DNA of 64,000 bases from Acaryochloris sp. CCMEE 5410 (GTDB lineage Bacteria > Cyanobacteriota > Cyanobacteriia > Thermosynechococcales > Thermosynechococcaceae), in assembly GCF_000238775.2 (NCBI RefSeq), contig NZ_AFEJ02000001.1, positions 2,852,001 to 2,916,000 on the forward strand. Direction: 5' to 3'. Below are positions 4,326 to 8,164 of the stretch, one piece after another. The notes under the pieces were generated by a model. That model saw only the letters and a list, made by a program, of their open reading frames with translations. It had not been told where the DNA came from and searched no databases. Position numbers and translations under genes: made by a program. How positions within the stretch are numbered: position 1 is the first letter of the stretch; each line of letters opens with the position of its first letter.

Positions 4326-5051
4326 ATGGGCATCAACAGTTACCTAAAAGCAGTCTCGATTTCAACGCTGGAAACCTTACAACAAGATCCGGGGTTGACT
4401 GAATTATTTTTTGCTGCCCAGTGGTTACCAGAAGCTCCTAAATGGAAGAAGTCTTATCTGCAGGGAGAATGGTGTGAGAGAGCGAAGGAACAGGCGGCCC
4501 AACGGTTCTCAACATATTCTTCACTCAAGCAACCGTTTCTTGATGAGTGGGAAACTCCAGAAGCAGATCTCCACAAGTATTTTGATGTCCTTACATTTCT
4601 GCTAGCAGGCTATGTGCCAGGCTATATCCTGCAGCCATGGACGATTCCAGAACTCAGAAGCAATGCTGAGTTGATGCAACAATCCAAAACTCGAGATTTT
4701 GCACCTTTCCTACTGTTTATGGACTCTCAGTGGGATGGGCTTCCTTTGGTCAATGCCTTGGGGGCCGGAACGATTCTGAATCCCAATACGAGGAATAACC
4801 CAAATCATAGCTTAGTTCGTTATCTATCCACAGAGGAAGTAGGGAACATGTTAGGTGGCTTGCTATTGCTTTCAGAACAAAGATTTCGAACACGTTATAA
4901 ACGAGAATCTAGGAAGTCAGCCCCTGTTCCCCTTTTTGATCTTTCTGAAGAAGAAGAGCTAGATTGGTTAACCGATTATTTTCGGATTATAGAAAATTAC
5001 TATAGCAACACCCTTCGTTCAGAAAAAGCCTTGCTGCTATACCTGTCTTAA
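4326..5051 (+). CDS. DUF1877 (YfbM)-like protein
   Basis: A 241-residue soluble protein. The N-terminus MGINSYLKAVS, followed by a helix with LETLQQDPGL, resembles the start of DUF1877/YfbM proteins. Further features of that family are a central 'hKYFDVLTFLLAG' segment and the later RYLSTEEVGNMLGG helix. Members are small cytoplasmic proteins of unknown function, often encoded near toxin-immunity-like loci. Here the neighbours are a lipoprotein and the Clp protease pair, which say nothing about its role. The assignment rests on motif order only. The protein is longer than typical members, mainly through an acidic C-terminal helix. Confidence 0.5.
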   Translation: MGINSYLKAVSISTLETLQQDPGLTELFFAAQWLPEAPKWKKSYLQGEWCERAKEQAAQRFSTYSSLKQPFLDEWETPEADLHKYFDVLTFLLAGYVPGYILQPWTIPELRSNAELMQQSKTRDFAPFLLFMDSQWDGLPLVNALGAGTILNPNTRNNPNHSLVRYLSTEEVGNMLGGLLLLSEQRFRTRYKRESRKSAPVPLFDLSEEEELDWLTDYFRIIENYYSNTLRSEKALLLYLS

Positions 5052-5120: not shown

Positions 5121-5717
5121 TTAAGCAGGTCTTTCTTCAATCACTTGGTCAATGAGGCCATATTCCAAAGCCTCATGGGCAGACATAAAGAAGTCGCGAT
5201 CCATATCTTTTTCAATTTTTTCCAAGGGTTGCCCTGTTCTCGCGGCGTAGATGTCATTCAACTGTCGACGCACACGAATGATTTCCTTCGCTTCAATTTC
5301 AATATCAGAAGCTTGTCCACGCGCCCCACCCGAAGGCTGGTGAATCATAATGCGAGAATGAGGAAGCGCCAAACGCTTACCAGGAGAGCCCGCAGCCAGT
5401 AGAAACGAACCCATGGAGGCCGCTAGGCCAACACAGATGGTCGCGACTTCTGACTTAATATGCTGCATGGTGTCATAAATAGCCAACCCCGCAGTCACTG
5501 AACCACCCGGCGAGTTGATATAGATGGAAATCGGCTTACTGGGATCTTCAGAATCCAAATACAGGAGAAAAGCCACAATTTGATTGGCTAGACCATCCGT
5601 TACTTCCTGGCCCAGAAAAATGATTCTTTCTTGGCTCAAACGGGTATAAATATCCACCCAGCGTTCATAGGGGCTGCCAGGAATACGGTAGGGAACACTA
5701 GGAACACCAATAGGCAT
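5121..5717 (-). CDS. clpP: ATP-dependent Clp protease proteolytic subunit (ClpP3 type)
   Basis: A 198-residue ClpP peptidase. The catalytic triad is visible: Ser101 in GLAASMGS, His126 in SRIMIHQP and Asp175 in DMDRDFF. The oxyanion and handle motifs [11 protein letters not shown] and [12 protein letters not shown] are intact. It forms the degradation chamber of the Clp machine with a Clp ATPase. It is the second gene after clpR, 44 bp downstream on the same strand. This is the cyanobacterial arrangement in which ClpP3 and catalytically dead ClpR form a mixed ring, which supports the paralogue assignment. A strong terminator follows at 5059-5091. There is no long propeptide, and the start ATG at 5717 matches the family. 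Confidence 0.93.
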
Positions 5718-5761
5718 AGTCGATAACTCTCTTTTTGCTACTACTCAGGTTGACTCATTTC

Positions 5762-6448
5762 TTAGACGGGCATTGGCGTGGGTAATTCTTTTTGGCTAGC
5801 CAACACGCGATCAATCAACCCATAGTCTTTGGCTTCTTCTGGAGACAGATAAAACATCCGGTCCATATCTTTCGAAATCTTCTCGGCGGTTTGTCCGGTA
5901 TTTTTTTGCAGAATGTCTAGCATTGTGGTTTTATTCGCAAGGACTTCCTGCGCTCTAATTTGAATATCAGAGGCTTGCCCTTGGGCACCGCTGCGGGCCT
6001 GGTTCAGAACAATCGTTGCATGGCCTAAGCTCGCTCGATATCCTTTGGTTCCTGCTGACAAGATCATGGCCGCAGTTCCCATGGCTTGACCGATACAAAT
6101 CGTGTGGACTGGGGGTTTGATGTATGACATGGTGTCGCAAATGGCAAAAGCTTCTGTTTCAAAGCCAATGGCATCGCCACCATACCAAGAGGTGCCTGTG
6201 GAATTGATGTAAAAGAAAATAGGTTTATCAGGATCGTCGAATTGCAAGAACAACAGTTGAGCAATAATCAACTCTGTGACATCAAAGCCAACTTGGCGTT
6301 TGATATCATCTGAGGAAAATAGGGGCATCCCCAAATACACAATCCGCTCTTTTAGCAATAGAGACTGTAAATCAGGGGGCGGGGTGCGGTAATAGGCATC
6401 GCCACCGCCACCGTAAGGGGCTTGAACTGCTTGAATCCTGGACTCCAT
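5762..6448 (-). CDS. clpR: ClpR, inactive ClpP-like subunit
   Basis: A 228-residue ClpP homologue from the ATG at 6448. The frame is open to an upstream ATG at 6505, but family N-termini begin near MESRIQAVQ, so 6448 is preferred. The catalytic serine position is Gly124 (IGQAMGTAAM) and the catalytic histidine is Asn149 (ATIVLNQA), so it cannot hydrolyse peptides. The ClpR-specific insertion follows INSTG (TSWYGGDAIGFETEAF). The handle region GAQGQASDIQI is conserved. In cyanobacteria and plastids ClpR combines with ClpP3 in one heptameric ring that works with ClpC. It is transcribed first, followed by clpP 44 bp later. Confidence 0.92.
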   Translation of the reverse strand: MESRIQAVQAPYGGGGDAYYRTPPPDLQSLLLKERIVYLGMPLFSSDDIKRQVGFDVTELIIAQLLFLQFDDPDKPIFFYINSTGTSWYGGDAIGFETEAFAICDTMSYIKPPVHTICIGQAMGTAAMILSAGTKGYRASLGHATIVLNQARSGAQGQASDIQIRAQEVLANKTTMLDILQKNTGQTAEKISKDMDRMFYLSPEEAKDYGLIDRVLASQKELPTPMPV

Positions 6449-6836
6449 TGCCTGACAACTACCTAAAGGTGACAATACTGTTACACTGTAGCAATTTTCT
6501 GGCATTTGAATTGGGGGAAATACCGTACTCCCAGATTGTCACTAAAGCTCATCCACAATGGCTCAAGTAACAATGGCATCGCTACAGATTATGTTGAAGC
6601 ATCGTAATACAATCTAGTTCGAAAAAATCTAGAAAGACTAGCATTCAGCAACAGCGCATCCTCAGAATGCTCAAAAATATTGATATATAAGCCTTTCAGC
6701 AATACTCACTGCTTTACTATTATTTTGCTGACGACAGGGATGTAATTACCAATATCTTGTAGTACAATACTACAAATAAATCTCTTATGCTTCCAGGGAC
6801 GATTGTTGCTCCCCATATCGTTTTGATGAGTGCATC
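6449..6836. other. Intergenic region between clpR and methyltransferase genes
   Basis: About 390 bp without a convincing gene. It holds the clpR promoter side, an AT-rich stretch and, near the right edge, the 19-bp inverted repeat at 6757-6775. No RNA gene was recognised. Confidence 0.6.
6757..6775. promoter_or_regulatory. Inverted repeat, putative operator before methyltransferase/RidA-PchB pair
   Basis: TTGTAGTA-CAA-TACTACAA is a perfect 8-bp inverted repeat with a 3-bp spacer, 61 bp before the methyltransferase start. The hexamer TACAAT inside it resembles a -10 element, so a bound repressor would block transcription. The cognate regulator is not adjacent. Confidence 0.45.
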
Positions 6837-7466
6837 ATGTCTAATCAATGGACCTCGGCAGAGCATGCCCTGAGTTATCTTGCTAGAGCAGATCAGTTTC
6901 CCCACCGTACCGAAGGAGAAGCAGTTCTGCTGGAACATGTGCCAACGACTGTCCAGCGAATCCTAGATTTGGGCACTGGAGATGGTCGCTTGTTGGCACT
7001 CCTCAAACTTGACCGTTCAGATGTGAACGGTGTGGCAATGGATTTTTCATCCACCATGCTTGAGGCGGTACAACAGCGATTTGCAGAGGACACCAAAGTT
7101 AAAATTGTTGAGCACAATCTGGAGAACCCGTTGCCCCCATTGGGAACGTTTGACGGGGTGGTGTCCAGTTTTGCCATTCACCATCTTGCCCACCCCCGCA
7201 AACGCTCCCTCTACCAAGAAGTATTTGAGATCCTGGAGCCTGGAGGCATTTTTTGTAACTTAGAGCATGTTGCATCACCCACGGCCAAACTTCATAAGCA
7301 GTTTTTGCAAGCCCTTGACATTGCCTTAGAAGATGATGATCCTTCCAATCAACTGTTAGATGTCGAAACACAGCTCAGCTGGTTGAGGGAGATCGGCTTT
7401 GAAGATGTGGACTGTTACTGGAAGTGGCTAGAAATGGCCCTCCTGATTGGGGTGAAACCACTATGA
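6837..7466 (+). CDS. Class I SAM-dependent methyltransferase
   Basis: A 209-residue Rossmann-fold methyltransferase. Motif I is ILDLGTGDGRLLALL at about residues 40-54, the acidic residue at the end of strand 2 is in VNGVAMDFS, and motif IV is the FDGVVSSFAIHHL segment, followed by a motif resembling LEPGGIFCNLEHV. These place it among small-molecule methyltransferases of the UbiE/Tam type; the acceptor is unknown. Its stop overlaps the start of the RidA-PchB fusion gene by 4 bp (ATGA), so the two are almost certainly co-translated. That suggests methylation of a chorismate-derived or related metabolite, which is inference. A palindromic site lies upstream at 6757-6775. Confidence 0.85.
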   Translation: MSNQWTSAEHALSYLARADQFPHRTEGEAVLLEHVPTTVQRILDLGTGDGRLLALLKLDRSDVNGVAMDFSSTMLEAVQQRFAEDTKVKIVEHNLENPLPPLGTFDGVVSSFAIHHLAHPRKRSLYQEVFEILEPGGIFCNLEHVASPTAKLHKQFLQALDIALEDDDPSNQLLDVETQLSWLREIGFEDVDCYWKWLEMALLIGVKPL

Positions 7467-8164
7467 ACCAGCCGATTCAACGGGTAAGTTCAGGGGCCCC
7501 GTGGGAAACCCAGGTGGGCTACTGTCGAGCCATTCAAGTGGGGGATCAAATTCACGTTTCTGGAACGGCCCCAGTGGATGCTCAAGGGCAGGTGGTTTCT
7601 GCCGATGGCTATACTCAAGCGCATCGATGCCTAGAGATTATCCAGACTGCTCTACAAGATTTGGGAACAGATACCCATGCCGTTGTACGAACCCGTATGT
7701 TCGTCACCGATATTACACAATGGCAGCAGTTTTCCCAGGCTCACCAAGAATTTTTTGGAGACCACCCTCCCGCTACCACCATGGTGCAAGTCAGTGCGCT
7801 GATTGATCCAGCCATCCTCATTGAAATTGAGGCGGATGCAGTGGTTCCAGTAGATAGCGCCGCCGCCATACTGGATGCTCAGGATTGTCGTGACATGACT
7901 GATATTCGCACTGCGATTGATCAGCTTGATGCCCAAGTCATTGCATTACTCGGTCAGCGATTTGACTACGTTAAAGCAGCAGCAAAATTCAAAACAGATG
8001 CCCACAGTGTCCAAGCTCCTGAACGCCTTAAGAAGATGTTAGAGCAGCGTCGGCAATGGGCTGAGAAGGCTGGTTTAGAGCCAGACGTTATCGAACAGCT
8101 TTATCGCAATTTAGTGCAATATTTTATTGATGCTGAACTTGAACATTGGCGATCTTCGCAATAG
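7463..8164 (+). CDS. RidA/YjgF - PchB-like chorismate mutase fusion protein
   Basis: A 233-residue two-domain protein from the ATG at 7463, which overlaps the preceding stop by 4 bp. Residues 1 to about 125 form a RidA/YjgF domain (VGDQIHVSGTAPVD, ALQDLGT, VVRTRMFVTD, LIEIEADAV). The usual RidA arginine in the VxRL position appears to be Ala (VSALIDP), so classical imine deamination is doubtful. Residues from about 132 form an AroQ-type chorismate mutase most like PchB, the isochorismate-pyruvate lyase: DIRTAIDQLD, LGQRFDYVKAAAKFK and APERLKKML carry the active-site Arg, Arg and Lys positions. Likely substrates are chorismate or isochorismate. No salicylate or siderophore genes are next to it. 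Confidence 0.85.
   Translation: MNQPIQRVSSGAPWETQVGYCRAIQVGDQIHVSGTAPVDAQGQVVSADGYTQAHRCLEIIQTALQDLGTDTHAVVRTRMFVTDITQWQQFSQAHQEFFGDHPPATTMVQVSALIDPAILIEIEADAVVPVDSAAAILDAQDCRDMTDIRTAIDQLDAQVIALLGQRFDYVKAAAKFKTDAHSVQAPERLKKMLEQRRQWAEKAGLEPDVIEQLYRNLVQYFIDAELEHWRSSQ

Follow-up and report, generated by a model that had tools for sequence, protein, structure and literature searches.

A Rid–PchB-Like Fusion Protein Encoded in Overlap with a Methyltransferase Gene in Acaryochloris: A Candidate Isochorismate Pyruvate Lyase on a Probable Rid Scaffold

Within the window analysed here, a 64,000-nucleotide stretch of the genome of Acaryochloris sp. CCMEE 5410, a 233-residue protein (7463..8164, plus strand) unites a Rid domain with an AroQ domain resembling PchB, the isochorismate pyruvate lyase of Pseudomonas, and its gene overlaps that of a 209-residue class I SAM-dependent methyltransferase (6837..7466, plus strand). 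The fusion is real, is under purifying selection, and represents a new domain combination built from known parts. The explanation that we prefer, with a probability of about 0.45, is that the AroQ domain would be isochorismate-pyruvate-lyase-like rather than a chorismate mutase and would sit on a non-deaminase Rid scaffold, the methyltransferase being a separate enzyme that is coupled to the fusion in this genus.

Gene Overlap and Domain Architecture

The two reading frames (6837-7466 and 7463-8164) share four base pairs, CCACTATGAACC, an ATGA start/stop overlap (7463..7466, plus strand) in which the ATG of the fusion begins at 7463 and the methyltransferase ends at 7466. The sequence-only reading had described this junction correctly, and because the same genes and the same overlap recur in three further species (four of the four with an intact pair), the arrangement cannot be ascribed to chance.

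The fusion was delimited from its open reading frame, Pfam and NCBIfam models, and solved relatives. Alignment to the latter places a Rv2704-like Rid domain at residues 7–128 (7481..7846, plus strand) and alignment to PchB places the AroQ domain at residues 139–232 (7877..8158, plus strand); the two are joined by a short linker, residues 129–138 (7847..7876, plus strand), that is recognised as fast-evolving from its nonsynonymous divergence (dN) between species. A structure prediction made from a two-row alignment gave a beta-alpha Rid domain and three long helices, and the predicted secondary structure agrees with the domain calls; the mean pLDDT was only 52, which makes the model unfit for a fold search. 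No description of a Rid–PchB fusion was found in the part of the literature covered. One lead on Rid–chorismate mutase fusions was rejected since it compares folds only, and we set aside a Yersinia study that deals with Rid genes and aromatic metabolism, since it contains no chorismate enzyme.

Conservation and Loss within the Genus

In the three other species with the intact pair, the fusion is 76–80% identical to the protein described here. Between species, both of its domains have dN values of 0.07–0.18 against synonymous divergence (dS) ranging from 0.6 to saturation, and dN for linker residues 131–139 is 0.24–0.58. Next to the methyltransferase, two tandem ClpP-family genes lie on the minus strand (window 5121-6505), a neighbourhood that is kept in several species of the genus. 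A DUF1877 protein is encoded at window 4326-5051.

The unit is nevertheless dispensable, as it is lost or broken in three of the seven genomes of the genus: one genome (G003) has an intact methyltransferase beside a fusion remnant with stops and a large internal deletion (locus L069, about 4490-4800), and two others (G005, G006) lack the fusion and have an interrupted methyltransferase, although these drafts are 82–92% complete and assembly error is possible for the broken copies. Such losses could be taken to mean that the pair is a decaying accessory unit, by now functionless in most strains. We regard this as highly improbable, given that both genes and their catalytic residues are intact in four species and that dN in each domain is far lower than dS.

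The AroQ Domain: Lyase or Mutase

The sequence-only reading had proposed a PchB-type domain with its Arg and Lys positions kept, and family models and alignment both uphold this. Pfam CM_2 matches residues 148–225 at 69.4 bits (cut-off 27), and the C-terminal half of the fusion passes the NCBIfam isochorismate lyase model NF005475 at 135.9 bits (cut-off 126); the curated NCBIfam chorismate-mutase models, by contrast, stay below their cut-offs (e.g., 47.8 versus 95.9 and 36.1 versus 107.55 bits). Residues 139–232 align to PchB (PDB 2h9c) with an E-value of 8e-23, and PchB R14, R31, and K42 correspond to R149, R166, and K177. What had been missed is that Gln90 of PchB is replaced by Glu (E225). 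The same Glu occupies this site in every PchB-like relative compared (cyanobacterial, Spirosoma, and the Escherichia coli cassette), and it does not imply inactivity, since working mutases have Glu for Gln there as well (Glu109 in *MtCM and Glu246 in ScCM; PMC7762937).

The distinction between lyase and mutase has been approached experimentally by Künzler and co-workers, who turned PchB into a mutase by changing seven positions and singled out Val54 versus Glu (PMC12329711; their numbering is the crystal numbering used here plus one, so that their 55 is Val54). At positions 49, 50, 54, 85, 86, 87, and 89, the fusion reads Q-A-L-Y-F-I-A and PchB reads P-A-V-W-Y-I-E, and the mutase Glu is thus absent from the fusion: the position that separates lyase from mutase is L189, which is hydrophobic and is neither the Val of the lyase nor the Glu of the mutases. 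Among these positions, which distinguish PchB from the E. coli mutase, the fusion shares Ala50 and Ile87 with PchB, and an aromatic pair, Tyr/Phe, takes the place of Asp/Ser at 85 and 86. Any such comparison has to be read in light of the published view that lyase and mutase are not separable from sequence alone, that about 80% of AroQ mutases hold the pocket Glu at position 54, and that PchB is the sole AroQ-fold isochorismate lyase to have been characterised biochemically (PMC12329711).

Taken with the AroQ three-helix fold that the domain shares with PchB (2h9c, 2h9d), the score above the NF005475 cut-off, the retained Arg/Arg/Lys set, the lack of the position-54 mutase Glu, and dN well below dS make a lyase the more likely assignment as far as sequence comparison can indicate. 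Against it stand E225 and L189, which both depart from PchB, an identity of 39%, and the dispensability of the unit. The domain further differs from PchB in the Tyr/Phe that replaces Trp85/Tyr86, in being fused to a Rid domain, and in having no siderophore genes around it.

Could the domain instead be an accessory chorismate mutase that feeds Phe and Tyr synthesis? The fold, the conserved Arg/Arg/Lys residues, and the Glu that replaces Gln90, also known from *MtCM and ScCM, would all suit such an enzyme, and the fusion carries the only AroQ domain of the 8.1 Mb genome. We nonetheless consider it unlikely: Leu stands at position 54 where most AroQ mutases have Glu, the isochorismate-lyase cut-off is passed and the chorismate-mutase cut-offs are far from reached, and an AroH-type chorismate mutase (PF07736, 151 bits) is encoded elsewhere in the genome, so that Phe and Tyr synthesis would have no need of the fusion. 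The genome also encodes a MenF-type isochorismate synthase (328 bits), from which it follows that isochorismate should be available and, together with the AroH-type mutase, that the AroQ domain is left free to serve a secondary function and has its substrate at hand. The sequence-only reading had remarked that salicylate, siderophore, and menaquinone genes are not nearby; siderophore genes are indeed absent, but the menaquinone part of the remark carries no weight because the MenF-type synthase lies elsewhere.

A lyase-like AroQ domain would accordingly be expected to act as an intertwined dimer that converts isochorismate, supplied by the MenF-type synthase, to salicylate and pyruvate, with an active site formed by R149' (from the partner chain), R166, K177, and a protonated E225 that would replace the Gln of PchB. 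We know of no use of salicylate in the host organism, which counts against this reading.

The Rid Domain

The N-terminal part of the fusion matches Pfam Ribonuc_L-PSP at residues 16–128 with 92.5 bits (cut-off 27.3), and in an alignment to YabJ the position of the catalytic Arg105 is A112, as expected from the initial suggestion of a RidA fold without its catalytic Arg. All four species with the fusion read VQVSALIDPA in this region, and the equivalent of Tyr17 is kept as Y20. Farther out in the clade the motif is VEVSRLI and the Arg stands at its canonical position. Of the unfused Rid proteins closest to the fusion (59–64% identity), several place an Arg or Lys one position before it; the two residues are Ser-Ala in the fusion. 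A search of contigs for relatives of the fusion returned unfused Rid genes only, and a match on a Nocardia plasmid, which at first sight covered the two domains, turned out to be a Rid gene alone.

The best solved relative of the domain is 3i7t, which we take to be Rv2704. With Rv2704 and the Arg-less subfamilies Rid4–Rid7 the domain shares the Rid fold, a similar N-terminal VGY motif, the lack of Arg105, and a conserved Tyr and Glu, and it differs from them in being fused to an AroQ domain. The functions of Rid4–Rid7 have been described as completely unknown (PMC4433059). Because Arg105 is lacking, the Rid domain of the fusion is probably not an imine deaminase, and it would most likely serve as a trimerising scaffold or as a ligand-sensing partner. 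Were trimerisation by Rid to be combined with dimerisation by AroQ, a 2x3 assembly of the fusion would result.

The Methyltransferase

The methyltransferase matches Methyltransf_25 (65.5 bits, Pfam cut-off 27), and its closest solved structures are the carboxyl O-methyltransferases CysG and BelI (PDB 9fcd, 9fce; E about 1e-30), which methylate isopropylmalate-type acids at the C1 carboxylate and have a His-His-Asp metal site (PMC11408123). Besides the class I fold, the metal-binding His pair is kept, as H115-H116, and is invariant across the 13 sequences of an orthologue alignment. The third ligand, Asp191, lies where the alignment has gaps; it is paired with Asn171 in one alignment, and in others the match is ambiguous. 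Unlike CysG and BelI, the enzyme has no belactosin or cystargolide cluster around it, and the region of the substrate-binding Arg187 is deleted. The proximity to CysG and BelI and the invariant His pair make a carboxyl O-methyltransferase a reasonable guess. The SABATH salicylate carboxyl methyltransferase family (PF03492) is absent from its Pfam matches; a whole-genome search for SABATH-type methyltransferases also found none, but says little because its control search was likewise empty. The CysG/BelI-like family itself appears to be uncharacterised and occurs, at 65–75% identity, in many cyanobacterial genera without a constant neighbour (loci L062–L068 and L070–L077).

One Pathway or Separate Parts

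The sequence-only reading had gone on to propose that the pair makes a methylated chorismate-derived metabolite. Put in terms of the domains, the PchB-like half would convert isochorismate to salicylate or a different product, which the methyltransferase would then turn into its methyl ester; methyl salicylate is a possible product because the nearest relatives of the methyltransferase are carboxyl O-methyltransferases. Salicylate is a hydroxy-carboxylate chelator, as are the hydroxy-acids of the CysG/BelI type. The overlap conserved in all four intact pairs speaks for this proposal, as does the kinship, invariant His pair included, with enzymes that methylate hydroxy-acid carboxylates. The uncertain Asp191 ligand speaks against it, as do the one species with an intact methyltransferase beside a dead fusion and the comparative evidence.

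In a sample of 386 cyanobacterial genomes searched with strict thresholds, the PchB-like domain was found in 13, the methyltransferase in 20, and the Rid clade in 17. Tested by genus (143 genera), the pairwise overlaps of the three families amount to 2, 2, and 3 genera, no more than chance, and none of the co-occurrences is significant; for the methyltransferase and PchB-like families, p was 0.14, or 0.44 without the host genus. Within the set of relatives, several other genera have the methyltransferase, with orthologues 65–75% identical, but no fusion, and the same holds for 13 further genera of the 143. No locus examined outside the genus joins any two of the three families, and no relative of the PchB-like domain turned up in phage records. 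Each part therefore has an independent existence in other cyanobacteria, which, with overlaps at chance level, argues against an obligate shared pathway. The linkage of the two-gene unit is conserved in three congeneric species but was not seen at the loci examined beyond the genus. Support for a joint pathway beyond the conserved overlap was not found, the case for coupled functions is weak, and a single pathway seems improbable to us. On the preferred reading, the methyltransferase would be a separate carboxyl-O-methyltransferase-like enzyme, with a family of its own, that has become translationally coupled to the fusion in this genus, and it might methylate the product of the lyase.

Unfused Relatives and the NAD Cluster

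Unfused PchB-like proteins from cyanobacteria, Spirosoma, and an E. coli integron cassette are 46–66% identical to the AroQ domain and share its invariant Glu, but they are single-domain proteins in different gene neighbourhoods. In eight of eight sampled genomes, from two cyanobacterial genera in two families, the PchB-like gene (46–63% identity) lies between a NUDIX gene and nadE; pncB and nadD precede the NUDIX gene where the flank sufficed, with a transposase-like gene intervening in one case (loci L042, L044, L048–L050; L030, L031, L034–L039), the names pncB-nadD-NUDIX-nadE having been assigned by reading the sequences and not from a family search. On the E. coli IncN plasmid NZ_CP135207.1 (locus L086, 3256-3570), a PchB-like gene with 53% identity, annotated as an isochorismate lyase, is carried as a cassette of a class 1 integron, flanked by blaVIM-23 and aac(6')-Il. 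Since neither the NAD cluster nor the integron is the context of a siderophore pathway, these relatives make the lyase annotation less certain.

Perhaps, then, the PchB-like clade with Glu at position 90 catalyses a different reaction or binds some other aromatic or pyridine carboxylate ligand in connection with NAD, the Rid fusion being a variant of it. The constant position between NUDIX and nadE in two genera and the Glu found in all relatives compared are in keeping with this idea, which we think rather unlikely: such a context was seen neither in the host genus nor at the other sampled cyanobacterial loci, and we know of no chemistry that links AroQ enzymes to NAD synthesis.

Conclusions

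There is a modest chance that the PchB-like proteins marked by the invariant Glu in place of Gln90, the fusion among them, form an uncharacterised enzyme clade whose role touches NAD metabolism, and that the fusion gives a first hint of function for a Rid subfamily lacking the Arg. The joining of an Arg-less Rid domain to a lyase-like AroQ domain is a clue to both, and one that can be tested with a single purified protein.
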